From the NCBI RefSeq assembly GCF_012926505.1, contig NZ_JABBNT010000004.1, forward strand, positions 310,001 through 374,000: a stretch of 64,000 nucleotides of DNA. Direction: 5' to 3'. Position 1 is the first letter of the stretch; every line of letters starts with the position of its first letter. Below the pieces are notes generated by a model. That model was not told the DNA's origin. It made no database searches and saw nothing but the letters and a program-made list of their open reading frames with translations. The position numbers were made by a program, and so were the translations under genes. Positions 7,128 to 23,704 of this stretch are shown here, one piece after another. This stretch comes from Pacificispira spongiicola. Lineage in GTDB: Bacteria > Pseudomonadota > Alphaproteobacteria > UBA8366 > Aestuariispiraceae.

Positions 7128-8216
7128 ATGGTCGCGCTGAAAATTGAGAATGTATGGAAGTATTACGGGGACACCGTCGCCGTGCGGGATTTGAACCTGG
7201 AATGCGACGATGGAGAGTTCGTTTGCATGCTGGGCCCGTCCGGGTGCGGAAAGTCGTCGACCATGCGGATGTTGGCGGGGTTGGAGCATATCTCGTCGGG
7301 CGACATCCTGTTGGGGGATCGTCGGATCAACGATCTGGCGCCGAAGGATCGCGATATCGCGATGGTGTTCGAAAACTACGCCCTCTATCCGCATAAAACC
7401 GTCGCGGAAAATATCGGCAATCCGCTGCGCCTTGCGAAGGTCGCGAAGCACGAAATTCGAAAGCGCGTTCAGGAAGCCGCGGATTTGTTGGAGATCGGGC
7501 ATCTTCTGGACCGGAAGCCGATGGAGCTCAGCGGCGGTCAGAAGCAACGTGTCGCCATCGGTCGCGTGATCGTTCGTCAGCCGCAGATCTATCTGTTCGA
7601 CGAACCGATTGCGCATTTGGATGCCAAGCTGCGTGCGCGCATGCGGTCCGAATTAAAGCACCTGCAACAGCATCTCGGCGTGACGACGGTCTATGTGACG
7701 CACGATCAGCTGGAAGCCCTGTCGATGGCGGATCGGATCGCGGTCATGCATGAAGGCGTGTTGCAGCAATTCGGCACACCGGCGGAAATCTACTCGAATC
7801 CGGTGAATGCCTGGGTTGCCGGTTTCGTCGGCGAACCGGCGATGAACCTGATCGCCTGTTCCTGCGCGCAGGAAGGCAATGCGGTGAATCTGATGCATGA
7901 CGGGTTCAAGATCACGCTCGACGACCGATTGGCGAAAGCCGCGCTGTCGAGCGGCGAACGCGACCTTCGGCTCGGCGTCAGGCCTGAGAATGTGCGCCTG
8001 ACCGCCGATCCGGATGACGGCATGATCGCGGGTACGGTTTTCTCCCGCCAATTGCTGGGCAGCGACATGTTGGTCGATGTCCTCAGCGGGGGCGATCATA
8101 TTCGTGTCAGGACGGATCCAAAATCTCCCTTCGAAGCCGACGAAAAGTGCTACGTTTCGTTCGACTTCGATCATGCACATCTATTCTCGGCGGAAACCGG
8201 GATTTCCATCGTCTGA
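7128..8216 (+). CDS. ABC transporter ATPase, UgpC/MalK type
   Basis: A 362-residue ATPase energising the importer. Walker A is GPSGCGKSS (about residues 36-44), the signature is LSGGQKQR, Walker B is YLFDEPIAHLD, the switch histidine lies in VYVTHDQLEAL, and a C-terminal regulatory TOBE/OB region (about 240-362) contains LGVRPENVRLT. The stretch after Walker B is IAHLD instead of the more common LSNLD. AAGAAGG lies upstream of the chosen ATG. As the only ATPase in the cluster it presumably serves as a homodimer. The next gene starts 37 bases downstream. Confidence 0.94.
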   Translation: MVALKIENVWKYYGDTVAVRDLNLECDDGEFVCMLGPSGCGKSSTMRMLAGLEHISSGDILLGDRRINDLAPKDRDIAMVFENYALYPHKTVAENIGNPLRLAKVAKHEIRKRVQEAADLLEIGHLLDRKPMELSGGQKQRVAIGRVIVRQPQIYLFDEPIAHLDAKLRARMRSELKHLQQHLGVTTVYVTHDQLEALSMADRIAVMHEGVLQQFGTPAEIYSNPVNAWVAGFVGEPAMNLIACSCAQEGNAVNLMHDGFKITLDDRLAKAALSSGERDLRLGVRPENVRLTADPDDGMIAGTVFSRQLLGSDMLVDVLSGGDHIRVRTDPKSPFEADEKCYVSFDFDHAHLFSAETGISIV

Positions 8217-8253
8217 CGGGGAGTGCGGACGGCATGATCGGATTGGCGACGCG

Positions 8254-8841
8254 ATGATTGGGAAAATGGCGGATAAACGGAGTGACATCCGACCGGCGGT
8301 GGACCTGTTCCACGAAGTTCGGCGCTATCGCTATCTGTCGGATGGCGTGCGCGATCCGCTGACCATTGCCGATCGCCGCGCCGGGTCCTGCACCGGCAAG
8401 CATCTTCTGCTGAGAGACCGGCTGCGTCAGGCGGGCTTCAAGGCGGATGTCGAAACGGTCAGGGGCGACTTCGCCGCCGGGATCCCCGTACATCCCGGCA
8501 TGTCGGCCGAATTACGCGAGATGGTGCAAGAGGCGGGGGTCGACGACTTCCACAACTATGTCGTCCTGCGGATGGAGGACGGTCGGACCCTCCGTCTCGA
8601 TGCAACCTGGAATGATGCGCTTCGTCCCTTTGGCTTTCCGGTCAACGATCGGTGGCACGGTGAAGGAGACACCGCGATTGCGCTGGAGCCGCAGGCGTCC
8701 TTGGGCGTCCGCGAGGATGTCGTCGCTTTCAAGAAAGACTGCCTGGACCAATTGCCCCGCGCAAATTTGGCGCGTCGGGCACGGTTCCTGGAATTGTTGA
8801 GCGAATGGATTTCGGAGGTCGATGAAATGACGACCGGATAA
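8254..8841 (+). CDS. Transglutaminase-like (Cys-His-Asp) protein of unknown function
   Basis: A 195-residue soluble protein with the layout of the transglutaminase/papain-like fold: Cys46 in RRAGSCTGKHLLLRDRLR at the start of a helix, His100 in DDFHNYVVLRMEDG and Asp116 in RTLRLDATWND. These fit the catalytic triad positions of small bacterial transglutaminase-core proteins, which are usually peptidases, amidases or acyltransferases. There is no signal peptide. I place the start at the ATG at 8254; the open frame continues upstream into the ATPase gene but without a good start. It lies between the importer ATPase and the FGGY kinase, all in one direction, so it is probably part of the catabolic operon. 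The actual reaction is not known. Confidence 0.7.
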   Translation: MIGKMADKRSDIRPAVDLFHEVRRYRYLSDGVRDPLTIADRRAGSCTGKHLLLRDRLRQAGFKADVETVRGDFAAGIPVHPGMSAELREMVQEAGVDDFHNYVVLRMEDGRTLRLDATWNDALRPFGFPVNDRWHGEGDTAIALEPQASLGVREDVVAFKKDCLDQLPRANLARRARFLELLSEWISEVDEMTTG

Positions 8842-8920
8842 GCCGCCGAAGAACGGCATCCGGGACGTATCAAAACAAACCGCACAATGCGGATAACAAA
8901 CGTCCTGAAGGGGAGGATAA

Positions 8921-10471
8921 ATGGAAAGAGCGTTTATTGGGATCGATGCCGGGACGACCGGTTGCACGGTCATGGTATTCGATCCGAAAGGCAAATGCCT
9001 CGGTCACGGATACAAGGAATATCCCACGATTTCGCCGCGTTCGGGATGGAACGAGCAAAACCTCGACGCCGTCTGGGACGGTATTTGCGAGGCCAGCAAA
9101 GCGGCGATCGCGCAAGCGAATTTACCGGCGGAAGCCTACAAATCGGTCGGCGTTTCAAGCCAGCGCGGCACCGTTTGTTTGCTGGACAAGGACAAGAAGC
9201 CGCTCGCCGACAGTATCGTGTGGAACGATGCGCGCGCGGTGGAACAAGCGGACCGCATCGGCGAAAGCCTGCCGCCTGAAGAACACCACGATCATACCGG
9301 CATGCAGCTCAGCCCGCTATGGACGGCCTCCAAAATCGCCTGGCTGCGCGACAAGAAGCCGGATCTGTTCGAGAAGATCGCGTGGTTCGCCAATGGTCAG
9401 GAATATTTCCTGCACCGCCTCGGTGCCGAAAAATGGGAAACCGATCCGGCGTCGCTCACGCTCAACGGCATGATGGATATTGCGAAGCTGGATTGGTCCG
9501 ACCGTATCCTGGAATTATGCGGCATCGACCGCAGCCGACTGCCGCCGGTCGGGATTCCGACCGGTTTCGTCGGGACGGTATCCAAACAGGCATCCGTGGA
9601 AACGGGTATCCCGGTCGGTGTGAAACTGTGCCGCGGTGCCGGGGATCAGCAATGCGCGGCGATCGGGGCGGGCGTGATCCGTCAGGGGCTGGCGGAATTC
9701 ACGGTCGGTACCGCCGCAGTGATGGTGGCCCATCTGGATTCGCTGGACCTGATCAAGGGGCGGAACCTGTGGTGGGGCGGTCATGGTGTGCCGAACCATT
9801 GGAACATCGAAGGGGCGGCGTTCAGCCTTGGCGCCTGCCTGAAATGGTGGCGCGACAACCTCGGCAACGACGACATCCAGAAAGCCCATAAGGAAGGGAA
9901 AAGCCCGTTCGCCGTGATGGTGGACGAGGCGGGCGAGGCCAAGCCCGGCGCGTCCGGTTTGTTGTTCCATTCCTTCCTGTCCAGCCAGGTGACGCCGTAT
10001 TACGACGCCTTCGCCCGGGGCGGCTATCTGGGGCTCGGTTTGCATCACAATCGTCAGGATCTGATCCGGGCGATGCTCGAAGGATGCGCCAACGAGATGA
10101 AGATGGTGGTCGATGCCTTCGACAGCGATATCGAGGGCGGCGTCACCGAATTGCGGCTGACCGGCGGTGGGACCAAGAGCCCTGGCTTCGTTCAGATCAT
10201 GTCGGATGTGTTCGGACGTCCGGTTCATGTGACCTCGGAACGCGAATGCACCGTTCTCGGTGCCGCGATCTTGGGGGCGGTCGGTGCCGGTGAATTCACC
10301 GACGTGTCTGAAGGGGTGGGCGAGATGGTGCACCTCGAAAGCTCGTTCGAACCCAATCGCGATCTGGCCGTGCTTTATACCGAACAGCACGGAATCTATC
10401 GCGATTTCTATGAGGCGATGGCCAAGGGCTCGTATGAGAAGCTCAACGCCTTTGCCAACAAGTACTGCTGA
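8921..10471 (+). CDS. FGGY-family carbohydrate kinase
   Basis: A 516-residue sugar or polyol kinase. The first phosphate motif is GIDAGTTGCTVMVFD (residues 6-20), the nucleotide-binding fold repeats in the C-terminal half with EFTVGTAAVMV, and the adenosine motif is LTGGGTKSPGFVQIMSDVFG. The catalytic aspartate is probably in GAGDQQCAAIG. It resembles the xylulokinase/LsrK branch more than glycerol kinase. GGGGAGG lies before the ATG. Its product, a sugar phosphate, is the natural candidate ligand for the SIS domain of the linked RpiR-type regulator. Substrate specificity cannot be read from the sequence. Confidence 0.9.
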   Translation: MERAFIGIDAGTTGCTVMVFDPKGKCLGHGYKEYPTISPRSGWNEQNLDAVWDGICEASKAAIAQANLPAEAYKSVGVSSQRGTVCLLDKDKKPLADSIVWNDARAVEQADRIGESLPPEEHHDHTGMQLSPLWTASKIAWLRDKKPDLFEKIAWFANGQEYFLHRLGAEKWETDPASLTLNGMMDIAKLDWSDRILELCGIDRSRLPPVGIPTGFVGTVSKQASVETGIPVGVKLCRGAGDQQCAAIGAGVIRQGLAEFTVGTAAVMVAHLDSLDLIKGRNLWWGGHGVPNHWNIEGAAFSLGACLKWWRDNLGNDDIQKAHKEGKSPFAVMVDEAGEAKPGASGLLFHSFLSSQVTPYYDAFARGGYLGLGLHHNRQDLIRAMLEGCANEMKMVVDAFDSDIEGGVTELRLTGGGTKSPGFVQIMSDVFGRPVHVTSERECTVLGAAILGAVGAGEFTDVSEGVGEMVHLESSFEPNRDLAVLYTEQHGIYRDFYEAMAKGSYEKLNAFANKYC

Positions 10472-10503
10472 CGCAGACACCTATAAAACAGGAGGAAACG
10501 ATT

Positions 10504-11058
10504 ATGGCTATGCCAGGAATGCGCGGAATGGAACATATCGGCTTCACGGTTCCGGATATCAATGAAGCCTGCACGTTCTTTGAAGAAATCCTCGGGGCGG
10601 AAACCCTTTACACGGCCGCCACGGATTTCCGTGTCGATGACAGCGATTGGATGACCGAACACCTGAACGTCCACCCCCGTTCGGTGATCACCGAATTCCG
10701 CTATCTGCGTTGCGGGAATGGCACCAACTTGGAGGTATTCGAGTATCGGGCGCCAGACCAGGACAAGACGCCACCGAAAAACAGCGATGTCGGCGGTCAT
10801 CACCTCGCGTTCTATGTCGATGACATGGATGAGGCGATCGCCTTCTTGAAGTCGAAAGGCGTGAAGGTCCTGGGCGACCCGACATCCTATACCGAAGGGC
10901 CGAATCTCGGGCTCACCTGGTGCTACTTCATGGCACCCTGGGGGCAACAGCTGGAAATCGTGTCCGCCCCGAAGGGAACCGTCTACGACAACGACGCCAA
11001 GAAATCGGGCAAGACGCGCCTATTCAATCCGGCGAATGTTGCGGAAACCACGCTTTAA
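10504..11058 (+). CDS. VOC (glyoxalase/dioxygenase fold) family protein
   Basis: A 184-residue vicinal oxygen chelate protein. The first beta-alpha-beta unit starts GMEHIGFTVPDINEACTFFE, giving a metal-ligand histidine near residue 12, and the second unit is GGHHLAFYVDDMDEAIAFLK, ending in a glutamate-bearing strand FMAPWGQQLEIVS. Metal ligands of the H-H/E type are therefore present. Such proteins isomerise, cleave or epimerise small carbonyl compounds. AGGAGGAAACG precedes the ATG, and the gene lies 32 bases after the kinase, so it is in the same operon. The substrate is unknown. Confidence 0.85.
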   Translation: MAMPGMRGMEHIGFTVPDINEACTFFEEILGAETLYTAATDFRVDDSDWMTEHLNVHPRSVITEFRYLRCGNGTNLEVFEYRAPDQDKTPPKNSDVGGHHLAFYVDDMDEAIAFLKSKGVKVLGDPTSYTEGPNLGLTWCYFMAPWGQQLEIVSAPKGTVYDNDAKKSGKTRLFNPANVAETTL

Positions 11059-11068
11059 AGACGTGCAG

Positions 11069-11104
11069 GCGATGCCGCGGCTCTATTGAGGGCGGCGGCA
11101 TCGC
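11069..11104 (+). other. Intercistronic stem-loop between VOC and monooxygenase genes
   Basis: GCGATGCCGC and GCGGCATCGC form a perfect 10-bp stem around a 16-base loop, 10 bases after the VOC stop codon. There is no U-run. It is probably an mRNA-stabilising or processing element inside the operon. Confidence 0.4.
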
Positions 11105-11137
11105 GCCCGTGCGGGATACATACAATGGGAGGGCGTT

Positions 11138-12937
11138 ATGCCTGATACGATTATCGACAGCCCGGCCGCGACCATCGTCGCGGATTTGGGGAAAGCGCTG
11201 GAAAGCGGCGATATCGACCGTGTCATCGACCTATTCCAGGACGATTGCTACTGGCGGGACCTCGTCAGCTTCACCTGGAACATCAGCACGATGGAAGGCA
11301 AGGATGCGATCAGCGATATGTTGACCGCGCAGCTTGCCGGTATCAAACCGGCAGCGTTCCAACTGGATCCGAAAGAATCGGTGGATGAAGCCGATGGGGT
11401 GGTAACGGCCTGCATCACCTTTGAAACCGATCTGTGCCGGGGCTATGGCATGGTGCGCGTCAAGGACGGCAAGATCTGGACGCTGCTGACCGGCATGGCC
11501 GAATTGAAAGGGTTCGAGGAAACGCTCGGTTTCAACCGCCCATTCGGTGTGAAGCATGGTTCCGACCGAAGCCGCACGACGTGGGTGGAAGAACGCGAAG
11601 AAGAGCAGCGAACGCTGGGATACAGCAAGCAGCCCTATGTGGTGATCGTCGGCGGCGGTCAGGGCGGTATCGCCTTGGGCGCCCGATTGCGGCAACTCGG
11701 CGTGCCGACCTTGATCGTGGACAAGAACGACCGTCCCGGAGACGCCTGGCGCAACCGCTATAAATCCCTCTGCCTGCACGATCCGGTTTGGTACGATCAC
11801 CTGCCGTATATGCCGTTTCCGCCGACATGGCCGATCTTCACGCCGAAGGACAAGATCGGCGATTGGCTGGAAATGTATACGAAGGTCATGGAATTGAATT
11901 ACTGGACCCGCACGTCTTGCAAGAGCGCGTCCTATAATGAGGCCAAGGGCGAATGGACGCTGACGGTCGATCGCGATGGCGAAGAAGTCGTCCTGAAACC
12001 AAAGCAATTGGTGCTGGCGACCGGCATGTCGGGCAAGCCGCGCATGCCCGACTTCCCCGGCATGGATCGCTTTAAGGGCGATCAGCATCATTCGTCCAAA
12101 CATCCGGGGCCGGACGCCTATAAGGGCAAGAAAGCCGTTATCGTCGGGTCCAACAATTCGGCGCATGATATCGCCGCCGCCCTGTGGGAAGCCGGGGCGG
12201 ATGTCACGATGGTCCAACGCTCCTCCACCCATATTGTCCGATCGGACTCTTTGATGGAACTGGGCATGGGGCCGCTTTATTCGGAGCAAGCGACGGCCAA
12301 CGGCATGACCACGCAGAAGGCGGATATGATCTTCGCCTCCGTGCCGTATGCGATCATGCATACGTTCCAGAAGCCCGTTTACGACAATATCCGGAAGCGC
12401 GACGCCGGCTTTTATTCGGCCCTGGAAAAAGCAGGATTCGAACTTGATTTCGGCGACGACGAATCCGGCCTGTTCATGAAATATCTACGCCGTGGGTCCG
12501 GATACTATATCGATGTCGGCGCCTGCCAGTTGGTCATCGACGGCGAAATCAAGATTGCCCATGGCCAAGTGTCGGAAGTGGTCGATGACGGAGTCGTGCT
12601 GGACGGTGGCGAGAAACTTGAGGCGGATTTGATCGTCTACGCCACCGGCTATGGCTCGATGAACGGCTGGGCGGCCGATCTTATCGGTCGCGACGTGGCC
12701 GACAAGGTCGGGAAGTGCTGGGGCTTGGGCTCCGGAACGACCAAGGATCCCGGACCCTGGGAAGGGGAGTTGCGTAATATGTGGAAGCCGACCCAGCAAA
12801 AGGCGTTGTGGTTCCATGGCGGCAACCTGCATCAGTCCCGGTTCTATTCCCATTATCTGGCGCATCAATTGAAGGCGCGGATGGAGGGGCTGCCGACTCC
12901 CGTATATGGTATGCGCGAAGTTCATCATTTGAGTTGA
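11138..12937 (+). CDS. SnoaL-like domain fused to FAD/NAD(P)-dependent monooxygenase
   Basis: A 599-residue two-part protein. Residues 1-150 look like a SnoaL/NTF2-like cone fold (FQDDCYWRDLVSFTWNISTM, then ITFETDLCRGYGMVRVKDGKI). Residues 165-599 are a group B flavin monooxygenase of the YUCCA/Baeyer-Villiger superfamily: FAD motif GGGQGG (172-177), the FxGxxxHxxx(W/Y) region around FKGDQHHSSKHPG, a second nucleotide motif VIVGSNNSAHDIAAALWEAG, and the ATGY box. GAGGGCGTT precedes the ATG. It is soluble with no signal peptide. It probably oxygenates a carbonyl, amine or thiol compound in the pathway served by the linked importer; the substrate is unknown. Confidence 0.87.
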   Translation: MPDTIIDSPAATIVADLGKALESGDIDRVIDLFQDDCYWRDLVSFTWNISTMEGKDAISDMLTAQLAGIKPAAFQLDPKESVDEADGVVTACITFETDLCRGYGMVRVKDGKIWTLLTGMAELKGFEETLGFNRPFGVKHGSDRSRTTWVEEREEEQRTLGYSKQPYVVIVGGGQGGIALGARLRQLGVPTLIVDKNDRPGDAWRNRYKSLCLHDPVWYDHLPYMPFPPTWPIFTPKDKIGDWLEMYTKVMELNYWTRTSCKSASYNEAKGEWTLTVDRDGEEVVLKPKQLVLATGMSGKPRMPDFPGMDRFKGDQHHSSKHPGPDAYKGKKAVIVGSNNSAHDIAAALWEAGADVTMVQRSSTHIVRSDSLMELGMGPLYSEQATANGMTTQKADMIFASVPYAIMHTFQKPVYDNIRKRDAGFYSALEKAGFELDFGDDESGLFMKYLRRGSGYYIDVGACQLVIDGEIKIAHGQVSEVVDDGVVLDGGEKLEADLIVYATGYGSMNGWAADLIGRDVADKVGKCWGLGSGTTKDPGPWEGELRNMWKPTQQKALWFHGGNLHQSRFYSHYLAHQLKARMEGLPTPVYGMREVHHLS

Positions 12938-13628: not shown

Positions 13629-15002
13629 CTACAGTAGTTTCTGGAGTTCGCGGCACAGGAAGTCGTAGAAACGCGGCGATTCCGCCCAGGCGATATTGAC
13701 CCGCATACCGGACCGGTTCGGTTTCCTGTCGACGCAGAAAAGGCTGCCCGGCGCCGTGAAGATGCCTTCGCCCATGGCTTGACGGGCCAGGTGCATATCG
13801 TCGATCCCGGATGGGAAACGCAGGTAGACATAATATCCCCCGGTCGGTGTCGACAGGGTTGAAAGGCCCGTCCGCTCCAAATTCTGCGTTACCACGTCCG
13901 TGGCCCGTCGAACGCGCTGAGCAAGACGCTTTAAGTGGCGATGATAGTGACCGTCGATCATGAGCCCGTGGACGAGACGCTCGACATAACTGGAACTGTT
14001 GACGCTGGTCAGCATCTTCAATTCGGCCAGGGAGGCGATGATGTCGGGCCTAGCGGCGACATATCCGCAGCGTAGACTGGCGGACAGTGTCTTGGAAAAG
14101 GTGCCGATGTGGATCACGTTCTGCAATTGATCGAGTTGCGCCATGAATGGCCCGTCCACAGTCGGTAGGTCCAGGAACGGTTCGTCTTCCACCACGACAA
14201 AACCATGCTGTTCTGCCAGCGTAAGGACTGCATGAGCGGTTGGCAGCGTTATCGATCCGCCGGTGGGGTTATGTGCAAGCGATTGGGTGAAAAAGATTTT
14301 TGGGCGTTCTCGCTCCGCCTTTTCTCGCAAATCGTCAATGTCCGGACCAGACGCCAGCCGACTCACGCCGACCATGCGGATCTGCGAGAGCTTCAGCTTC
14401 GCGAACAGGGGATAGTATCCCGGATCATCCACCAGAACTGTATCCCCGGGCAGAAGCAGACGGCGGATTATCAAGTCGAGCGCGTGATTGGCACCAAAGG
14501 TTAAAAGTATCCCGTCGGTCCCGACTTCAACGCCCCGGTCCATATAGTTCATCGCCAACCTGTCCCGAAGACCGGGGTAGCCCATCGCCGAACCGTATCC
14601 GTCCTCCCGGGATGCGGCAGGAAGCTTGAAGCGACCAAGATGACGCTGAAGCTCTGATTCTTCTGTCCAGGAGGCGGGGGGGCGGCCGTCGCCGACCCGG
14701 ATTGAGAAGTTCTGTTCAAGTTGTGCACTCAACAGCGACGCGATGTCGACGGCCTCTGCTACATGTTGGGAGTGATCGGATGCCAGTTGAGTGTACCTAT
14801 TGGCGACCGTAAACCCATACCCGGTCCGTGATGAAATCAGACCCGCTGAAACCAACCGGTCATAGGCTTCCACGACAGTGTTTTTCGAAACTTCATATTC
14901 CTCTGCGGCTCGCCGAATGGATAGAAGACGGCTTCCCGGCTCCAAGAGGCCGCTCTCGATTCGTTTGGTGATCTTATCAACGATGGTTTCGGTTAGTGTC
15001 AT
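13629..15002 (-). CDS. MocR/GntR-family regulator with aminotransferase-like domain
   Basis: About 457 residues. The N-terminal GntR winged helix (residues 1-70) includes SRLLSIRRAAEEYEVSKNTV, a linker follows, and then comes a fold-type I aminotransferase domain with the PLP lysine in IGTFSKTLSASLRCGYVA and the PLP-contact HNPTGGSI. MocR proteins use the PLP domain as an effector sensor and normally control a neighbouring or divergent gene. Here the divergent target would be the HMG-CoA reductase/transporter operon. The ATG at 15002 is my choice; a GTG three codons upstream is possible. No Shine-Dalgarno sequence is visible, so the mRNA may be nearly leaderless. Confidence 0.9.
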   Translation of the reverse strand: MTLTETIVDKITKRIESGLLEPGSRLLSIRRAAEEYEVSKNTVVEAYDRLVSAGLISSRTGYGFTVANRYTQLASDHSQHVAEAVDIASLLSAQLEQNFSIRVGDGRPPASWTEESELQRHLGRFKLPAASREDGYGSAMGYPGLRDRLAMNYMDRGVEVGTDGILLTFGANHALDLIIRRLLLPGDTVLVDDPGYYPLFAKLKLSQIRMVGVSRLASGPDIDDLREKAERERPKIFFTQSLAHNPTGGSITLPTAHAVLTLAEQHGFVVVEDEPFLDLPTVDGPFMAQLDQLQNVIHIGTFSKTLSASLRCGYVAARPDIIASLAELKMLTSVNSSSYVERLVHGLMIDGHYHRHLKRLAQRVRRATDVVTQNLERTGLSTLSTPTGGYYVYLRFPSGIDDMHLARQAMGEGIFTAPGSLFCVDRKPNRSGMRVNIAWAESPRFYDFLCRELQKLL

Positions 15003-15313
15003 ATATATCACGTAATATCAGAATGTTAGATCGGTTTGCGGTCTTGCCTTACGGGCCCTTTCATAAAGAATGCGCTGCATGATCCATATTTCCCCGTGCC
15101 CGAAAGTTCGAAAACGCAGACCTATTAATATATCGGATTATCCGTCGTTGCGCCCCCTTCTGGCAAGGAATGTTATGGTGCGATGCGGTATTCTGTAATG
15201 GATACGGTAAGGATACATTTATTTAAACTGTACCTTGCAGTAGAAGGTGAGGTCGGTGTCAGATCGATGTCAACGTCGCCGGAACCAATCCGGTGCAGGG
15301 TAGGGAGGACAAC
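15003..15313. promoter_or_regulatory. Divergent promoter region between mocR-type gene and HMG-CoA reductase
   Basis: These 311 bases have no gene and are AT-rich around 15120-15240. A direct repeat GGATAC occurs at 15200-15205 and 15211-15216 (11-bp spacing), with GTATTC in the opposite sense at 15189. MocR regulators often bind such direct repeats, so this is a candidate operator. AGGGAGG at 15301-15307 is the ribosome binding site that fixes the reductase start. Confidence 0.45.
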
Positions 15314-16633
15314 GTGATCGTTGGCACCGATGCGGAAAAACCGCGCCGGGCGGTAAATTCGCGGATCGCTGGGTTTCGCGATCTCGAACCGTCGGAACGA
15401 CTTCAAAAACTAGCTGAAATCGCCGGTCTGAGCCAATCGGATACCCATGCGCTACGGGGCGGTGGCGCTCTGCCGCTCGCTCTGGCGAATGGAATGATCG
15501 AAAACGTCGTCGGGACGTTCGACCTACCAATCGGCGTGGCGACAAATTTCACGATCAACGGTCGCGATTACCTGATTCCCATGGCGGTGGAGGAACCGTC
15601 GGTGGTCGCTGCGGCGTCCTACATGGCGAAAATCGCCCGAGACAATGGCGGATTCCGTACCTCCAGCACCGATCCGGTTATGATCGCCCAGGTTCAGGTC
15701 TTGGGTACGAACGATCCGAATGGCGCTCGCCAACGGATTTTGGAGCGCCGAGACGAAATTGTCGCGACCGCGAATGAGAAAGACAAGGTCCTAGTCGGAC
15801 TGGGTGGCGGTTGCCGGGATATCGAGGTGAATGTCTTCGAGACGACGCCTGTCGGCCCGATGGTGATCGTGCATCTGCTGGTCGATGTTCGCGACGCGAT
15901 GGGCGCAAACACCGTCAATACCATGGCGGAAGGCGTCGCGCCGATGGTCGAGGAACTCGCCGGCGGACCGGTTCGGCTTCGCATTCTGTCGAATCTCGCG
16001 GACCGGCGGTTGGCCCGGGCCCGGATGGAACTATCCATCGACTCGCTGGCGACCGGGGAATATTCGGGCGATCGCATTGCCCAAGGCATCGTTGAGGCTT
16101 GCGCCATGGCCATCGTCGACCCGTACCGCGCCGCGACTCACAACAAGGGGATCATGAACGGTATCGATCCTGTCGTCGTCGCGACAGGAAACGATTGGCG
16201 AGCGATTGAAGCCGGGGCTCATGCCTGGGCCGCTCGTGCCGGCCGCTATACCTCCCTAACGCGCTGGGAGATTTCCGGTGTCGGTACGCTGGTGGGCTGC
16301 ATCGAAATGCCAATGGCTCTGGGTCTTGTGGGCGGGGCAACCCGCACCCATCCGGCAGCTCAGGCATCGCTGGCGCTGTTGGACGTTCGATCGGCTCAAG
16401 AATTGTCGGAAATCGCCGTCGCGGTCGGACTCGCACAGAATATGGCGGCGCTGCGTGCGCTGGCCAGCGAGGGGATTCAGCGCGGCCACATGACACTGCA
16501 TGCGCGGAACATCGCCATCGTCGCCGGAGCCACCGGCAATCAGATCGAAATTGTGGCTGGCGAACTGGCTGAAAGTCAAGATGTGCGCGTCGACCGAGCG
16601 AAGGAAATCCTTCGCCGTCTGACGGGCGAGTAG
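15314..16633 (+). CDS. mvaA: Class II (degradative-type) hydroxymethylglutaryl-CoA reductase
   Basis: A 439-residue class II HMG-CoA reductase, which interconverts mevalonate + CoA and HMG-CoA with two NAD(P)(H). It carries the expected catalytic set: Glu in [12 protein letters not shown] (about 93-94), Lys278 in [10 protein letters not shown], Asp294 in TGNDW and His396 in TLHARN, plus [12 protein letters not shown] (63-74) and DAMGAN (194-199). The GGGCRDIE stretch places an Asp (169) where the Pseudomonas mevalonii enzyme has the one favouring NAD(H), which suits the oxidative direction. The GTG at 15314 is chosen over one seven codons upstream because AGGGAGG lies between them. It is the first gene of an operon with a ribose-type ABC importer, and no mevalonate-pathway biosynthesis genes are nearby, so a catabolic role is inferred. 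Confidence 0.95.
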
Positions 16634-16663
16634 AATCAGGACGGGATAGGGAAGGCACGTCCC

Positions 16664-17656
16664 ATGCGATCCTTGGCACCCGGTCCGGCGTCTCTCGTGA
16701 AGAGTCAGGAAGGCATCGTCTTCTTGCTGGCGCTGCTTGCCTTCCTCGCTTTCGCGTTGTTCCTTCCGGCGTTCTTCAGTGCGGGGAACCTTCTAACGCT
16801 GGTGCGTAGCGTGTCGATCCTCGGCATCCTGGCCCTCGGCATGGCTTTGGTTGTGGTCGGACGCGGGATTGATGTGTCGATGGTCGCGACCATGGTCGTC
16901 TCCGTTTCCTGGGCATTCGCTCTGTCCCGATCTGGATATCCTTTAGAAGTCGCGCTGTTGATCGGCGCCGGGTTCGCGTTGCTGACCGGCATCATCATCG
17001 GCTTCGCCGTAGCAGTGGGCGAGGTGCCGCCGATCTTTGCCACCCTAGCCGCTGGGTCGATCATTTATGGCCTGGGACGTACGTTCTTTTTCACCCTGGA
17101 GATGCAGAACGTCCCGCCGGGCGAGGATTGGTTCGCGCTCATCGGTCAGGGGCGAATACTCGGTATTCCGGTCACGGTCGTCGCCTTCGCGATGCTATGC
17201 TTCGTTGCCCACATTCTGTTGAGCCGCACCCGCTTCGGCTGGCAGCTCTATGCGATGGGCAACAATCCGGAGGCGGCTAAGATCACCGGCGTGCCCTTTC
17301 GCCCGATGGTGGTCGCGCAATACGCGATCAGCGCCTTTGTTGCCTTCGGGGCGGGGCTGATCCTGGCGTCCTCGGCCTCGGCGATCAATGCGCGGCTCTA
17401 CAATTCGACCTTCATCTACGACATCTTGCTGGTCGTTGTCCTGGGTGGCATCGGTTTGAACGGCGGGCACGGGAAAATCCGCAACGTCATCCTTGGGACC
17501 ATGTTCGTCGGCATCCTTTTGAACGGCATGACGATCATGAACATCCCCTTCACGGTCCAGAACCTGGTGAAGGGCGTGGTGCTGCTGTTCGCTATCATCA
17601 TCGATTCACTGGTCAACCCGCGCGACGAACAGACGTCGCAGCAAGGGGACCTGTGA
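16664..17656 (+). CDS. Ribose-type ABC transporter permease
   Basis: A 330-residue permease of the RbsC/XylH class with about nine membrane segments. The conserved stretch ILALGMALVVVGRGIDVSMVATM corresponds to the RbsC motif TGGIDLSVGS (here GRGIDVSM), and the EAA-like coupling region is MGNNPEAAKITGVPFRPM. It starts 30 bases after the HMG-CoA reductase. A second permease is encoded at 18738, so the channel is probably a heterodimer. Confidence 0.9.
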   Translation: MRSLAPGPASLVKSQEGIVFLLALLAFLAFALFLPAFFSAGNLLTLVRSVSILGILALGMALVVVGRGIDVSMVATMVVSVSWAFALSRSGYPLEVALLIGAGFALLTGIIIGFAVAVGEVPPIFATLAAGSIIYGLGRTFFFTLEMQNVPPGEDWFALIGQGRILGIPVTVVAFAMLCFVAHILLSRTRFGWQLYAMGNNPEAAKITGVPFRPMVVAQYAISAFVAFGAGLILASSASAINARLYNSTFIYDILLVVVLGGIGLNGGHGKIRNVILGTMFVGILLNGMTIMNIPFTVQNLVKGVVLLFAIIIDSLVNPRDEQTSQQGDL

Positions 17657-17704
17657 CAAACACACACATCAAAAACGGTTAACGAAAAAAGAGGGAGGAA
17701 CGTT

Positions 17705-18718
17705 ATGAGTAAGTCGCTACTGATTAAACTGATGGCCGTTGCCTGGGTCGTCTTTGTTCCATTCGCCGCACAGGCCCAGAACAAAGGGCTCGAAAATCCA
17801 CGCAGCACAGCCTTCCACGGAGAGTTGGAAGGAAAGAACGTGGTGTTCCTGCCGCTGTCCATGGGCTTCGATCTGACCGAAGGCTGGGCCGCAAAGATGC
17901 GTCAGCAGGCGGAACGTTTGAACTACAACTTCGAAATTCGGGATCCTGCGTGGAGTACAGACGCCGGAACGCGCGCGTTGCAATCCTTGATCGGAGAAAA
18001 ACCCGACCTGATCGTTGCCCACAATCCGGATATTCAGTCCTATGCCCGCCTTTTGGCTCGAGCCCAGGCGGAGGGGATCAAAGTCATCCAAATCAACCTG
18101 GAATCAAATACCCAGACGGACTCGTATGTCGGGGCCGACTGGACGGAAATTGGGCAGCAGGCGGCGTTGGCCGTCGTCGATCGCTGCGCCGAAGGTAAAG
18201 GCGTTTCCAGTAAGGTCGCGATCGACACCGGCGTTCCGACGGCCGCGTCGGATGTTTTCCAGTTGGACGGAATCTACCGCGTGCTGGATCAGCATCCTGA
18301 AATCGAAGTCGTTTCGCAGCAGGCGACGGAATACAATCCGGAAAAGGCGCGAGCCATCATGGAAACCGTGCTTCAGCAGCACCCGGATCTGTGCGGGGCG
18401 ATCGGTATATGGGACAACCAGGACACCGGAACGGCCTCCGCCATTCAACAGGCAGGAAAGGGCGATCAGGTCTTCCTGGTGACCAGCGGTGGCGGCAACA
18501 TGGTCGGTTGCGAGAATGTCTCAAAGGGGTTGTTCAGCCTCTACATCAGTTACAACGTGCCGCTTCAGGGCGACATTCTGAATGCGGAAATCGCACGATT
18601 GCTGCGATCCGATGCGGATGCCGGGGAAATGAAGGCGATGTACTTCAACCCGTTGACGCTGATCACCAAGGACGATGTCAACCAGCGTAATTGCTGGACT
18701 CTCGAAGACCTGCAGTAA
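17705..18718 (+). CDS. Ribose-type ABC transporter substrate-binding protein
   Basis: A 337-residue periplasmic binding protein of the RbsB/LacI-like type I fold. It has a Sec signal peptide (positive MSKSLLIKL, hydrophobic core, AQA cleavage near residue 24). The two Rossmann-like lobes show GWAAKMRQQAERLNYNFEI and DLIVAHNPDIQSYARLLARA; a second lobe contains LCGAIGIWDNQDTGTASAIQQAG. GAGGGAGGAACGTT precedes the ATG. Operon position next to HMG-CoA reductase suggests mevalonate or mevalonolactone as ligand, although this fold is usually seen with sugars and related hydroxylated molecules. Confidence 0.9.
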   Translation: MSKSLLIKLMAVAWVVFVPFAAQAQNKGLENPRSTAFHGELEGKNVVFLPLSMGFDLTEGWAAKMRQQAERLNYNFEIRDPAWSTDAGTRALQSLIGEKPDLIVAHNPDIQSYARLLARAQAEGIKVIQINLESNTQTDSYVGADWTEIGQQAALAVVDRCAEGKGVSSKVAIDTGVPTAASDVFQLDGIYRVLDQHPEIEVVSQQATEYNPEKARAIMETVLQQHPDLCGAIGIWDNQDTGTASAIQQAGKGDQVFLVTSGGGNMVGCENVSKGLFSLYISYNVPLQGDILNAEIARLLRSDADAGEMKAMYFNPLTLITKDDVNQRNCWTLEDLQ

Positions 18719-18737
18719 GCACGGGCACGTAAGGATC

Positions 18738-20855
18738 ATGGCCGTCAGCGATATGCTTCTCCGGCTTCGGTACCGGATTGTCCCGGACCGGCTGTTCGGC
18801 GAACTCCTGACCAAGAGCTGGATCGACAACGTCATTCCGGTGCTTGTGCTGGCGGTCACTGTTTTGGTGATGACCGTCCTGATCCCCGGCTATCTCTCGA
18901 CCGGGAACATGGCGGATTTGGGCCGGCAGGTTGCCGAGTTCGGGCTGATCGCGATCGCGCTGACGATCGTGATCCTGTCCGGCGGGATCGACCTGTCGGT
19001 CGGGTCCGTGTTCGCGCTGACCGTCTTGACCGCGTTGGTCTGCATGAACGTGTTGGGCGTGCCCATCGGTGTCGCTTTGGCCGCGACCCTGGGCGTCGGA
19101 CTGGTGTGCGGTCTGTTGAACGGGGTGCTGGTCGGGTACCTGCGGCTACGCGCCTTTATCACGACCTTGGTTACGTTGGTTATCTTCCGGGCGATCTACG
19201 ACATCGTCTTCCCGAAGCTGGCCAGCGCCATTGTCGCCAGCATGCCGTCGTCGTTCCTGTGGGATTACATTGGTTTCGGTAACGTCGTCGGTATTCCGAT
19301 ATCGTTCCTGATCTTCGTCGCGATCGCGCTGGTCGTACATATCGTGTTGTCAAGGATGCGGCCCGGTTGGCGATTGCGGGCCGTCGGTGGGGCGCGACGG
19401 TCCGCCTTCAATGCTGGCATCAATGTGAAGCTGACGGTTTGCATGGCCTATGCGGCGTCGGGTGTTCTCACCGCGATGGCGGCATTCCTGTTTTCCGCCC
19501 GATTGGGTAGTACCGGCGCCGATACTGGAATCGGGTTGGAAATCGTGATCCTGACCGCGGTCGTGCTGGGTGGGGTTTCCCTGGGCGGCGGCCGCGGGTC
19601 CGTCGGCGGCGCGATTATCGGGACAGTGCTGGTGCTGATTCTAAGCAACAGCCTGATCCGGATGGCGGTACCCGGCTCGCTCAACCAGTTGATCCTGGGC
19701 GTGGTTTTAGTCGCGGCGGTTCTGTTCGATGTGAAATGGGTCAAGAACCGCGGCAAGATCTTGAGCAAGGTCTACGTCTCGCCCACCTATCTGGCGCTCA
19801 AGGAGCGCCCACGGGTCGCGGAAGATCCGGTGCTGGCCGTGAACGACCGACTGGGCGATGCTCAGCAGATCGGTGTCGGTGCGGTCGAGGGGCCCGAAGA
19901 CGTCATTCTAGATCGGGATGGAAATCTCTATACCGGGACGCGTCACGGCAATATCGTGCGCTTCTTCGCACCGGACTACAACACGCACGAAATCTTTGCG
20001 CGGGTCGGCGGGCACCCGCTTGGGCTGGCCTTTACGCGGGATGGAGATCTTGTCACGTGCGTCGGGGGCATGGGGGTTTATCGGGTGACCCCGGATGGAA
20101 CCGTCCACAAGGTGACGGACGAAACCAACCGCAGCGCCCTGTCGATCATCGACGATTCCCGATTGCGCCTGCCGGATGATCTCGATATCGCGCCGGACGG
20201 CCGGATTTTCTTCAGTGAGGCCACAATTCGCTACGAGATGTCGGAATGGGCGGTGGACGCGCTGGAAGGCCGCGGCAATGGTCGTTTGCTGTGCTTCGAT
20301 CCGAAGACCGGGACGACGCGGACTCTGCTGCGTGGCCTCGTCTTCCCGAACGGGATCACGGTCTGCCGCGACGGCCAGTCGCTTCTGTTCGCCGAAACCT
20401 GGGCCTGCCGCATTATGCGCTATTGGTTTGACGGACCGAACAAGGGCAAGCGGGAAACCTTCGTCGACAACCTTCCCGGCTATCCCGACAACGTCAACCG
20501 CGCGTCCAATGGCGGCTATTGGGTGGCACTCTTGGGCATGCGTACGAAAACATTCGATCTGGCCATGAGAAAACCCGGTTTCCGGCGTCGCATGGCGAAG
20601 CGCATCGCGGCGGATGAATGGCTGTTTCCCAACATTAACCGGGGGTGCGTCATTCGGATGACGGCGGACGGGACGATTACGGATTCCTATTGGGACGCGG
20701 ACGGGGAGAAACACCCCTCGATCACCTCCATGCGGGAGCATAAGGGCTATCTTTTCCTTGGTGGGGTGTCGAACAACCGGATCGGGCGTGTGCGCATCGC
20801 CGACGCGGATCCGGATTGGACAGCACCGGACGATTATTGGGGGGATGCGGAATGA
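18738..20855 (+). CDS. Ribose-type ABC permease fused to SMP-30/strictosidine-synthase-like beta-propeller
   Basis: A 705-residue fusion. Residues 1-345 are an RbsC-class permease (LSGGIDLSVGSVFALTVL is the family motif; eight or more hydrophobic segments). Residues 370-705 form a six-bladed propeller of the SMP-30/gluconolactonase/strictosidine-synthase class: EGPEDVILDRDGNLYTG, LRLPDDLDIAPDGRIFFSEA, GLVFPNGITVCRDGQSLLFAET, NLPGYPDNVNRASNGGYWVALL. Acidic and Asn residues of the Ca2+-binding centre (E in EGPED, N in PNGIT, DN in PDNV) are present. RbsC-type C-termini face the cytoplasm, so an esterase or lactonase acting on incoming substrate is likely. AAGGATC precedes the ATG. Confidence 0.88.
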   Translation: MAVSDMLLRLRYRIVPDRLFGELLTKSWIDNVIPVLVLAVTVLVMTVLIPGYLSTGNMADLGRQVAEFGLIAIALTIVILSGGIDLSVGSVFALTVLTALVCMNVLGVPIGVALAATLGVGLVCGLLNGVLVGYLRLRAFITTLVTLVIFRAIYDIVFPKLASAIVASMPSSFLWDYIGFGNVVGIPISFLIFVAIALVVHIVLSRMRPGWRLRAVGGARRSAFNAGINVKLTVCMAYAASGVLTAMAAFLFSARLGSTGADTGIGLEIVILTAVVLGGVSLGGGRGSVGGAIIGTVLVLILSNSLIRMAVPGSLNQLILGVVLVAAVLFDVKWVKNRGKILSKVYVSPTYLALKERPRVAEDPVLAVNDRLGDAQQIGVGAVEGPEDVILDRDGNLYTGTRHGNIVRFFAPDYNTHEIFARVGGHPLGLAFTRDGDLVTCVGGMGVYRVTPDGTVHKVTDETNRSALSIIDDSRLRLPDDLDIAPDGRIFFSEATIRYEMSEWAVDALEGRGNGRLLCFDPKTGTTRTLLRGLVFPNGITVCRDGQSLLFAETWACRIMRYWFDGPNKGKRETFVDNLPGYPDNVNRASNGGYWVALLGMRTKTFDLAMRKPGFRRRMAKRIAADEWLFPNINRGCVIRMTADGTITDSYWDADGEKHPSITSMREHKGYLFLGGVSNNRIGRVRIADADPDWTAPDDYWGDAE

Positions 20856-21958
20856 GCGGCCTGATCACATCCCTCATGCGGAACCTGCTGGGGTACAGCG
20901 ATACGGGCATCAGCATTCCGCCGATGGATAATATGTTCAAACCGAACAATCGGTTGGAAGCGGCAAAGATCGTCACCCGGATTGACGGGCTGGACGATAT
21001 CGCCCCGACGACGGACGGTTTTTTGTGCAGTGCCCGTGACGCTCTCCTTCGCGTGTCGCTCGGCCCGGATGGTGCGCGGGTGGAAAAACTCGACCGGCTC
21101 GACGGGGCGATTACTTTCCTGGCCGCGCGTGCGGATGGGGAACTTGCCTTGGCAACGGAAAAGCGCGGGTTGCGCATCGGCCGCCCCGGCGCGTGGCGCT
21201 CGGTGGAACTGCCGGAGGATCAGGCACGTTGCCTGACCGCCGGTTGTTTCCTACCGGATGGTAGTTTGACGCTCTGCGTCGGATCTGTGCGAAACCCGGC
21301 ATCCGCCTGGAAGAGGGATTTGATGCAGCATGGTGCGTCGGGCTGTGTCTTTTCCATCGCGCCGGACTGCGGTTCCGTCCGGATGTTGGCGGATGGACTG
21401 GGGTTCCCCTATGGGATCGTGTCGTTGGAAGATGGGGCGCTGGCGGTTAGCGAAAGCTGGCGGCATCGGGTGCTGAGAGTAGAAACCGAAGCGAAGAGCG
21501 TGCGTCCCGCGCCGATGCTGTCGAATTTACCCGCCTATCCGGCGCGGATCGCTCCGTCGGCGGAGGGCGGATATCTATTGGCTCTGTTCGCCCCTCGCCG
21601 GCAGCTCTTTGAAATGATTCTGATCGAGGACGAATACCGGATGGAGATGATGGAAACGATCGATCCGTCCGAATGGGTCGGTCCGGACCTGCGCCAAACG
21701 GACGATCCGGATCAGCCGTTGCAACAGGGTTCCGTCCGCCAAATGGGCATTCTGAAACCGTGGGCCCCGTCGCGGTCCTATGGGCTAGTGGTGCGGTGCG
21801 ATGCGTCGATGACGCCGGTGGAAAGTTGGCATAGCCGCGCGGACGGCACGCGCCACGGCATCACCGCGACCTGTGAAAGAGGTGGTGTTGTCTTTGCGGC
21901 ATCCAAAGGGGCGGGGGAGCTGTTGCATCTGTCGGACGAAAGGGAGGGCGCGCAATGA
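20852..21958 (+). CDS. Beta-propeller protein, SMP-30/strictosidine-synthase-like
   Basis: A 368-residue protein without signal peptide, starting at an ATGA overlap with the fusion gene. Repeats of the propeller type are visible (DGLDDIAPTTDGFLCSARD, ADGLGFPYGIVSLEDGALAVSES, LSNLPAYPARIAPSAEGGYLLALF), which parallel the PNGIT and GYPDN blocks of the fused domain, but the metal-site residues are altered (PYGIV for PNGIT, AYPAR for GYPDN). It is therefore a diverged second propeller: a partner subunit, a different-specificity hydrolase, or an inactive scaffold. It is translationally coupled to both neighbours. Confidence 0.75.
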   Translation: MSGLITSLMRNLLGYSDTGISIPPMDNMFKPNNRLEAAKIVTRIDGLDDIAPTTDGFLCSARDALLRVSLGPDGARVEKLDRLDGAITFLAARADGELALATEKRGLRIGRPGAWRSVELPEDQARCLTAGCFLPDGSLTLCVGSVRNPASAWKRDLMQHGASGCVFSIAPDCGSVRMLADGLGFPYGIVSLEDGALAVSESWRHRVLRVETEAKSVRPAPMLSNLPAYPARIAPSAEGGYLLALFAPRRQLFEMILIEDEYRMEMMETIDPSEWVGPDLRQTDDPDQPLQQGSVRQMGILKPWAPSRSYGLVVRCDASMTPVESWHSRADGTRHGITATCERGGVVFAASKGAGELLHLSDEREGAQ

Positions 21959-23454
21959 CCGATGTTGTTGCCTTTCGCAACGCGACCAAATCCTTTCGCG
22001 GCAACCCCGCCGTCAAGAACGTGGATTTCACCCTGCGCAGGGGTGAGGTCCACGCCCTGCTTGGCGAAAATGGGGCAGGGAAGTCGACCTTGACCAAGGT
22101 TCTGGCCGGGCTTTATCCCCTGACATCTGGCGAAATGCTGATGGACGGCAAGGCCGTGTCCTTTGCCTCGCCCGCCGAGGCAATGGAAAACGGCGTCGCG
22201 ATGGTGTTCCAGGAGACAAACCTGGTCCCCTCTATGACCGTCGCGCAGAATATCTTCCTAGGGGACGAAAAATTCTTCAACCGCATTCGCGGGATCAACA
22301 TTCAGGCGCAACAGCATCTTCAACGAATGAGCTTTCATGTTGAGCCGACGGCCCTCGTCTCCGGTTTGGGCGCGGCGAAGAAGCAGATGGTGGAAATCGC
22401 GCGCGCCGTCCATCACAAGGCGCGAATCTTTATCTTCGATGAGCCGACGGCGACCCTGACGCCGGAAGAAAAACAGCATTTTTTCGACCTGATGGACCGG
22501 CTAAAGGGAGAAGGGGCGTCGATCATCTTCATCTCTCATGCGCTGGAGGAGGCGTTAAGTGTCGCCGACAGGATCAGTATCCTCCGTGACGGGGAATTGG
22601 TTGTGACGGACGATGCCGGGGCCTTCAGCCGGGAGTCCATCATTCAGGCCATGGTCGGGCGTCAGTTGACCGGCGAGCTTTATGGGGAGGGGGGACGCCA
22701 GCGCGTTGCCCGCAAGCCGGGGGAACGGGTGTTGGCAATCGAAAACCTGTCCATGGGGAAGGTCGTGCGCAATGCGACTTTGTCGGTCTTTGCCGGTCAG
22801 GTCACGGGGCTCTTCGGTCTGGTCGGAGCCGGCCGGACGGAGATGATGAAGATCGCCGCCGGGGTTCTGAGACGCGATTTTTTTCATGGTGGGGTGGTCC
22901 GCCTGAATGGCGTGCCGGTCCGTTTTCGCGTGCCGCGTCAGGCGGTCAGCCGAGGCATCGCCTACGTGACGGAAGACCGGAAGTACGACGGTCTGTTCAC
23001 CACCATGGGGGTGATGCAAAACGTCTATCAGGGAAAGCTTGCCCGCGGTTCCAACCCCGTTGAGTTCGTGCGGATGGAGGATGTTCAGCACCAGGCCCAG
23101 GAATGGATAGAGCGCCTGAATGTGCGGGCCATCGGCGGCGACGCCAAAGTGGTTGAACTGTCCGGCGGAAACCAACAAAAGGTGGTGATCGCTAAATCCC
23201 TGATCCAGGAACCGTCGGTCGTCATTTTTGACGAGCCGACCCGCGGCGTCGATGTCGGCGCGATTGCGGAAATTCATCAAACGATCGAGCGTCTGGCCGA
23301 TGCCGGTGCGGCGATCGTCGTCATATCGTCCTATTTACCGGAAATCCTCAATCTGTCAGATCGCATCCTTGTCGCGCGCCAGGGCCGTATCGTCGAGGAA
23401 ATGATGATCGAGGAAGCGACCGAAGAGAAGATTATGTACGCGGCTGTGCATTAG
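21955..23454 (+). CDS. Ribose-type ABC transporter ATPase (two nucleotide-binding domains)
   Basis: A 499-residue double ATPase of the RbsA/MglA class. The first domain has Walker A GENGAGKST (37-45), a diverged signature LGAAKKQMVEIARA and Walker B IFIFDEPTATLT. The second has the degenerate Walker A GLVGAGRTE typical of the family, with signature LSGGNQQKVVIAKSL and Walker B VVIFDEPTRGVD. It begins at an ATGA overlap with the preceding gene and is the last gene of the importer operon. No clear terminator follows it. Confidence 0.94.
   Translation: MTDVVAFRNATKSFRGNPAVKNVDFTLRRGEVHALLGENGAGKSTLTKVLAGLYPLTSGEMLMDGKAVSFASPAEAMENGVAMVFQETNLVPSMTVAQNIFLGDEKFFNRIRGINIQAQQHLQRMSFHVEPTALVSGLGAAKKQMVEIARAVHHKARIFIFDEPTATLTPEEKQHFFDLMDRLKGEGASIIFISHALEEALSVADRISILRDGELVVTDDAGAFSRESIIQAMVGRQLTGELYGEGGRQRVARKPGERVLAIENLSMGKVVRNATLSVFAGQVTGLFGLVGAGRTEMMKIAAGVLRRDFFHGGVVRLNGVPVRFRVPRQAVSRGIAYVTEDRKYDGLFTTMGVMQNVYQGKLARGSNPVEFVRMEDVQHQAQEWIERLNVRAIGGDAKVVELSGGNQQKVVIAKSLIQEPSVVIFDEPTRGVDVGAIAEIHQTIERLADAGAAIVVISSYLPEILNLSDRILVARQGRIVEEMMIEEATEEKIMYAAVH

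Positions 23455-23614: not shown

Positions 23615-23704
<90 letters not shown>

Follow-up and report, generated by a model that had tools for sequence, protein, structure and literature searches.

The window analysed here is a stretch of 64,000 nucleotides (nt) of the Pacificispira spongiicola genome (contig C14, positions 310001-374000; genome 4.2 Mb, 19 contigs), and its gene content identifies a six-gene operon headed by a degradative 3-hydroxy-3-methylglutaryl-CoA (HMG-CoA) reductase (HMGR), with the gene of a MocR-type regulator running divergently. Because a comparison of loci from many genomes brings together the regulator, HMG-CoA lyase, importers, a shared operator, the recurrence of the operon and homologues of the lactonase Drp35, it is very likely that the operon serves mevalonate catabolism. 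On balance, we read it as an operon of accessory character that was probably gained horizontally and would serve growth on mevalonate, with mevalonolactone as the likeliest form taken up; the direction of the reductase, the substrate, the lactonase activity, the topology, the regulation and the origin are all inferred. The genes and the predicted operator are as follows, with positions counted in the window.

13629..15011, minus strand: MocR-type regulator with a GntR helix-turn-helix (HTH) and an aminotransferase-like domain (PF00392, PF00155); K307 is the predicted pyridoxal phosphate lysine (context FSKTL)
15201..15236, plus strand: predicted operator, GATACGGT at 15201-15208 and AAACTGTACCTT at 15225-15236 (sequence pattern)
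15314..16633, plus strand: HMG-CoA reductase, degradative type (TIGR00532; ungapped to 1qax; catalytic residues)
16664..17656, plus strand: CUT2-type ATP-binding cassette (ABC) permease 1 (PF02653)
17705..18718, plus strand: substrate-binding protein (SBP) with a signal-peptide-like N-terminus, by eye (PF13407)
18738..20855 (frame from 18675), plus strand: permease 2 with a C-terminal lactonase-type propeller, a single gene (PF02653, PF20067, PF03088, PF08450)
20852..21958, plus strand: second propeller, metal site degenerate (D, T, Y, A), recognised by blastp to the fused propeller and a strand-rich model
21955..23454, plus strand: CUT2-type ABC ATPase with two ABC domains (PF00005, two stretches)

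All operon genes are open frames at or close to the coordinates of an earlier, model-made reading of the same DNA (the sequence-only reading), which had described a tightly packed operon with ATGA overlaps and a divergent MocR gene, a complete ribose-type ABC importer and no isoprenoid biosynthesis genes. Its coordinates, gaps and overlaps are right: HMGR and permease 1 are separated by 30 nt, permease 1 and the SBP by 48 nt, and ATGA overlaps follow at 20852 and 21955. The importer is complete by Pfam, and family searches among the operon proteins gave no isoprenoid biosynthesis gene. The GTG start of HMGR at 15314 is preceded by GGGAGGA. For the permease-propeller fusion, ATG 18738 is a more likely start than 18675, because AAGGA stands in front of it and the orthologue in Mangrovicella endophytica (L002) aligns from residue 22.

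The reductase scored 438.8 bits against TIGR00532, "HMG-CoA reductase, degradative" (cut-off 259.95), and only 42.8 bits against the NADPH model TIGR00533. It aligns without a gap to the Pseudomonas mevalonii enzyme (1qax) over residues 14-438, and E94, K278, D294, H392 and D157 fall at the places of E83, K267, D283, H381 and D146 of that enzyme; we take the first four of these to be its catalytic residues, and D146 is presumably the Asp tied to NAD use. The class II enzyme with all catalytic residues described in the sequence-only reading is therefore present. D157, together with the failure to find HMG-CoA synthase or mevalonate kinase in the genome, points indirectly to an oxidative, NAD-dependent direction.

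The same reading had placed an HMG-CoA lyase elsewhere in the genome, and one was found on contig C17 (G000:C17:66752-67618), with 49% identity to the lyase query (E 2.5e-85) and 444.5 bits against NF004283 (cut-off 246); the query gave a further, weak match of 79 residues within a longer protein on C15. Upstream of the C17 lyase lie a carboxyltransferase, an enoyl-CoA hydratase and a biotin carboxylase with an MCC-alpha domain, and the gene therefore belongs to a leucine-type degradation cluster. A search for mevalonate-pathway genes, also proposed with that reading, gave no match genome-wide for HMG-CoA synthase (PF01154) or mevalonate kinase (TIGR00549), with control genomes positive and a genome 97.85% complete; Dxr is encoded, and phosphomevalonate kinase, decarboxylase and idi were covered among the operon genes only. 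A biosynthetic HMGR was ranked low in a genome with neither synthase nor kinase detected.

The whole operon, with MocR divergent from HMGR, permease, SBP, fusion, propeller and ATPase, recurs in three other genomes, M. endophytica, G379 (L106/L107) and Shinella (plasmid pShin-02), which answers in the affirmative whether reductase, importer and propellers are kept together outside this organism. In M. endophytica the permease part of the fusion is 72% and the propeller part 76% identical to ours, and the lyase is the last gene. The lyase is likewise last in G379, where it is 64% identical to that of M. endophytica and where two further cassettes adjoin, one of them cut by the end of the stretch; within the 21 kb examined of Shinella pShin-02 there is no lyase. 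In a tree of 19 fusions, the four HMGR-linked ones form a single clade (100/100).

HMGR loci were then compared more widely. A scan gave at least 592 matching stretches, of which the best 80 were used; 38 of these are proteobacterial (L002-L036, L038, L039 and L066), and the other 42, from Chloroflexota, archaea and one Firmicute, showed no MocR orthologue, permease, SBP or propeller in a first comparison. Since the gene caller missed HMGR in L022, L028, L034 and L149, the counts on the 38 loci were made by tblastn. A lyase gene (at least 40% identity) lies within the examined stretch at 20 of them, and 27 carry one of four unrelated importer classes beside HMGR, the class names being taken from representative loci: a TctA-type permease at 19, TRAP at 5, LIV-type ABC at 2 and the present cassette at 1. 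Of 385 genomes drawn evenly from the class, 13 have HMGR (E 1e-100 or better). By gene calls, MocR is divergent in nine (the window, G379, G335, G244, G374, G203, G075, G300 and G093) and was not seen in G043, G357, G235 and G327, the caller having missed HMGR itself in the last. A TRAP importer of the L003 type lies downstream of HMGR in G374, G203, G075 and G300, and more distant TRAP genes (25-39% identity) adjoin it in G357, G235 and G327. HMGR was present in 3/43 genomes of the window's order and in 0/5 other genomes of its genus. Thirty plasmid records carry HMGR, that of Tistrella mobilis pTM1 among them, and four were examined. Besides Shinella pShin-02 these are three, in which the arrangement is MocR / HMGR-DctPQM on the Ruegeria pomeroyi megaplasmid, lyase-MocR / HMGR-TctA on Rhizobium etli pRsp8C3a (typed conjugative), and MocR / HMGR, plus hydratase and lyase, in Rhizobium CC-CFT758.

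Two features of the other HMGR loci are recorded here in their own right. In L140 (4639-9308), L141 (6645-9216) and L039 (10001-14644) the gene after HMGR encodes a class III CoA-transferase, and in L140 this is followed by an enoyl-CoA hydratase, by family search, and then a LIV-type binding protein; such loci are perhaps another catabolic context, for anhydromevalonate, which we offer as an idea only. In L004 (8867-10709) and 18 other scan loci, the TctA-family permease beside HMGR has a partner of about 150 amino acids, for which the copy tested, that of L004, gave no Pfam or NCBIfam match; the pair is a candidate for an odd mevalonate transporter of the tripartite-tricarboxylate type.

A MocR orthologue is divergent from HMGR, at no more than 700 nt, in 30 of the 38 proteobacterial loci. 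These 30 gaps, with those of L107, L118, L119, L120 and the window, make a set of 35, in which ACTGTACC is exact in 18 and present with at most one mismatch in 34; in 200 dinucleotide shuffles of the gaps the corresponding means were 0.07 (largest 1) and 1.7 (largest 7). The sole gap without it at this tolerance, that of L120, carries the inverted form. By plain count, 18/35 gaps have an inverted GGTACAGT (at most one mismatch) whose start precedes that of ACTGTACC by 26 or 27 nt, and the two halves in the window stand 26 nt apart by the same measure. Genome-wide, AAACTGTACCTT has a single perfect copy, ahead of this HMGR, and one more with one mismatch, on C13; the reversed pattern has nine places at one-mismatch tolerance. 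The regulator itself combines the GntR HTH, the aminotransferase-like domain, K307 and a predicted repeat operator in the promoter, as expected of a MocR protein. According to the main text of PMC5320631, MocR operators are generally repeats, often with a TGT core and with a spacing that is constant within a group.

Taking these observations together, we propose that: (i) the MocR regulator would act at the shared divergent promoter through the predicted ACTGTACC operator; (ii) the SBP and the CUT2 ABC importer would bring in neutral mevalonolactone; (iii) the propeller fused to permease 2, on the cytosolic face, would open the lactone to mevalonate; (iv) the degradative HMGR would oxidise mevalonate with CoA and 2 NAD+ to HMG-CoA; and (v) HMG-CoA would be cleaved to acetyl-CoA and acetoacetate by the lyase encoded in the leucine-type cluster on C17.

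By Pfam the importer is a CUT2 set, with one SBP (PF13407), two permeases (PF02653) and a two-domain ATPase. The permeases, the SBP and the ATPase all fall under the cut-off of the NCBIfam sugar models listed, the SBP far under. Aligned with 2ioy, the SBP has Asn-Leu where ribose-type proteins have Asp-Arg, a pair that we take to be their sugar-binding residues.

The propeller fused to permease 2 is strictosidine-synthase-like or SMP-30-like (PF20067, PF03088, PF08450). Mapped onto Drp35 through the Drp35 homologue of L006, its four ligand places, Glu, Asp, Asn and Asp, are filled by E408, D501, N559 and D605 (numbered from ATG 18675). In the 19 aligned fusions the Glu, the Asn and the last Asp are present in all, and the first Asp in 17 (Asn in L113 and L115); two strictosidine synthases compared with it lack the Asn and the last Asp, and the rice protein 8kg3, its best match, has both. 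This conservation suggests that the fused propeller may be an active enzyme. Of five fusions analysed by hydropathy, four have nine or ten membrane spans ahead of the propeller and one has eight, and a Lys/Arg-rich stretch follows the last span. The pattern suggests a cytosolic propeller, by a simple method in which an odd span count reverses the side unless the N-terminus is outside.

The second propeller is below every Pfam cut-off (best Str_synth, E 0.064) and blastp shows its homology to the fused one (25% identity, E 1.6e-22); a model built from two sequences is strand-rich, with mean pLDDT 67.5 and pTM 0.69. At its ligand places the window protein has D, T, Y and A, so that three of the four are lost and Glu is replaced by Asp. 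None of the 19 copies compared retains the last Asp or the first Asp (one has Asn at the latter place), 16 lack the Asn, and at the Glu place 15 have Asp, three have Gly and one has Glu. The two lactonase-class propellers of the sequence-only reading therefore stand only in part: the first has its ligands intact, but is fused to permease 2, and the second has lost most of its metal site. Two active lactonases were rejected as a reading, given T, Y and A at three ligand places of the second.

A separate route ties propeller lactonases to HMGR loci. In L006, L024 and L038 (3/38 loci) the gene after TctA is a Drp35 homologue; that of L006 matches at E 6.8e-83, the L024 and L038 copies are 87% and 56% identical to it, and all three have signal-peptide-like N-terminal stretches, by eye. 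According to PMC6052127, Staphylococcus aureus Drp35 opens mevalonolactone at 478 umol/min/mg and the other tested lactones at least 100-fold more slowly, and some staphylococci have the Drp35 gene next to mvaS and mvaA or next to the mvaK1/D/K2 operon. At the HMGR loci, the lactonase-type protein that accompanies the importer class named for carboxylates (TctA) looks exported, and the one that goes with the CUT2 importer looks cytosolic. It is because of this contrast that we prefer import of the lactone. Import of mevalonolactone, with ring opening by the fused propeller, is a plausible proposal and, if the operon is indeed catabolic, we consider it somewhat more likely than not. The outcome for the sequence-only reading is mixed: mevalonate catabolism under a MocR regulator is strongly supported by the comparison of loci, and the refuting conditions that were checked (signs of a mevalonate pathway elsewhere in the genome, loss of the neighbourhood in other genomes) did not turn up; the import of mevalonolactone has indirect support from the Drp35 homologues and the fused-propeller ligands, but the latter are also kept where there is no HMGR.

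The importer-propeller cassette is itself more widespread than the operon. It was found in 10/385 genomes of the class, at no fewer than 14 places (scoring covered the two best candidates of each genome, and at least one further place exists in G379), in 2/43 genomes of the order and in 16 plasmid records. P. spongiicola carries a second permease-SBP-fusion-propeller-ATPase cassette on C18 (L091 2573-12183), with genes for a Zn alcohol dehydrogenase and an aldehyde dehydrogenase after it. The neighbours of the L111 cassette (glycerol kinase, PyrF, TrpF, TrpB and TrpA) were considered as a clue to the substrate and rejected. Among the cassette-bearing plasmids, with H4, H6-H9, H11-H14 and H16 outside the examination, the HMGR-linked one is Shinella pShin-02. 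Tentatively, permease 2 with its own cytosolic metal-dependent lactonase may define an importer family, in which a neutral lactone would be converted on entry into a charged acid unable to leak back; the clade linked to HMGR would be a mevalonolactone importer-lactonase, the sister cassettes would serve other lactones, and the second propeller would be a structural or regulatory partner.

Several observations weigh against the proposed scheme. Of the 14 cassette places in genomes of the class, only the window and one of those in G379 are HMGR-linked, and in G244 about 256 kb separate HMGR from the cassette. Alcohol and aldehyde dehydrogenases adjoin the cassettes of C18, G303 (arranged as on C18) and Salipiger, an acyl-CoA ligase and an enoyl-CoA hydratase adjoin those of G244, G083 and G007, and the remaining copies adjoin varied genes. 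The metal ligands are kept in sister fusions without HMGR and therefore cannot name the lactone; the sister SBPs likewise lack the Asp-Arg pair, so Asn-Leu informs on the family and not on the substrate. Among the 38 HMGR loci, 35 have no Drp35-like gene by tblastn, 11 have none of the four importers and 8 have no divergent MocR. In the window, family searches of the operon genes found no lyase, the left half of the operator, GATACGGT, is poor, with two mismatches to GGTACAGT, and the genome-wide search for AAACTGTACCTT (at most one mismatch) found no copy at the organism's own lyase.

The first rival accepts mevalonate catabolism and supposes that mevalonate itself, or another precursor of it, is what the importer transports, the propellers being structural, regulatory or simply inherited with the cassette and not mevalonolactonases. 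The propellers do belong to the cassette whatever its neighbours, at most HMGR loci the importer is of the TctA or TRAP family, both named for carboxylates, and no propeller gene is present, and the second propeller is without most of its metal site. Against this, the Drp35-type genes at three HMGR loci indicate that lactone opening can belong to the pathway, the conserved ligands suggest that the fused propeller is active, and the exported-looking Drp35 proteins accompany a carboxylate-type importer whereas the propeller here looks cytosolic. We hold this rival to be a serious possibility but rather unlikely. It is improbable that the operon degrades a larger compound containing a mevalonate or anhydromevalonate unit, with HMGR handling only the released unit: a class III CoA-transferase and an enoyl-CoA hydratase come after HMGR in G335, G244 and L039-type loci, and a hydratase and a lyase do so in Rhizobium CC-CFT758, which could hint at further feeder steps, but family searches of the window operon found no such feeder enzyme. 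Least probable is an ordinary sugar importer lying by chance beside a biosynthetic or relic HMGR, for even though the permeases and ATPase are similar to those of ribose, arabinose and xylose importers and cassette copies without HMGR exist, HMGR and cassette are linked in four genomes with their fusions in one clade, HMGR is intact, synthase and kinase gave no match, and the SBP falls far under the sugar models, with the Asp-Arg pair replaced by Asn-Leu.

The accessory character of the operon was examined at its edge. The operon ends 160 nt ahead of a tRNA-Ser(CGA) gene (window 23615-23704). This tRNA, rplU and Obg are kept in 5/5 congeners, and the opposite side differs: in the 6 to 11 kb ahead of the tRNA in the five congeners there is no MocR, HMGR, permease 1, SBP, fusion or second propeller, and L161 alone has a distant ABC ATPase (28%) there. 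The operon therefore sits in accessory DNA. Its G+C content gives no clear break; horizontal gain is likely, and the plasmid copies fit it. Further upstream, at window 7128-12937 (plus strand), lie a sugar-type ABC ATPase (by eye), an FGGY kinase, a glyoxalase-like protein and a SnoaL-flavin monooxygenase fusion, possibly another catabolic operon.

Catabolic HMGR is already known as an enzyme, and mvaAB of P. mevalonii encodes mevalonate catabolism by the route from HMGR to lyase. Compared through the enzyme structure 1qax, the window has an HMGR of the same class II, NAD type and the same proposed route; it differs in that the lyase is absent from the operon (it is the last gene in M. endophytica and G379) and that MocR, a CUT2 importer and propellers are present. 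Drp35 of S. aureus (2dg0, 2dg1) is of the same propeller family, with E, D, N and D at the ligand places as in the fused propeller, whereas the window propeller is of the strictosidine-synthase-like branch and is fused to a permease. CUT2 importers (ribose/xylose/arabinose-type) share the SBP, the two permeases and the two-domain ATPase, but the window has a C-terminal propeller on permease 2, an extra propeller gene and replaced sugar-binding residues. The MocR regulons of Suvorova and Rodionov (2016, PMC5320631) share with the window-type operator the repeat form, often the TGT core, and a spacing constant within a group; the main text of that paper has no mention of mevalon, HMG, mva or GTAC, and an unnamed group in its supplements may include this regulator. 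In the literature searched, with most subscription papers and all supplements outside, we found no description of a MocR-HMGR regulon or operator, of this importer, of a permease-lactonase fusion, or of bacterial mevalonate uptake or the control of its use.

These results offer a testable regulon, MocR with the ACTGTACC operator in Alpha-, Beta- and Gammaproteobacteria, and several interchangeable importer classes for one metabolite. A permease-lactonase-type fusion would couple import directly to chemistry, and the Drp35 homologues at catabolic HMGR loci suggest that mevalonolactone is a real nutrient in nature.

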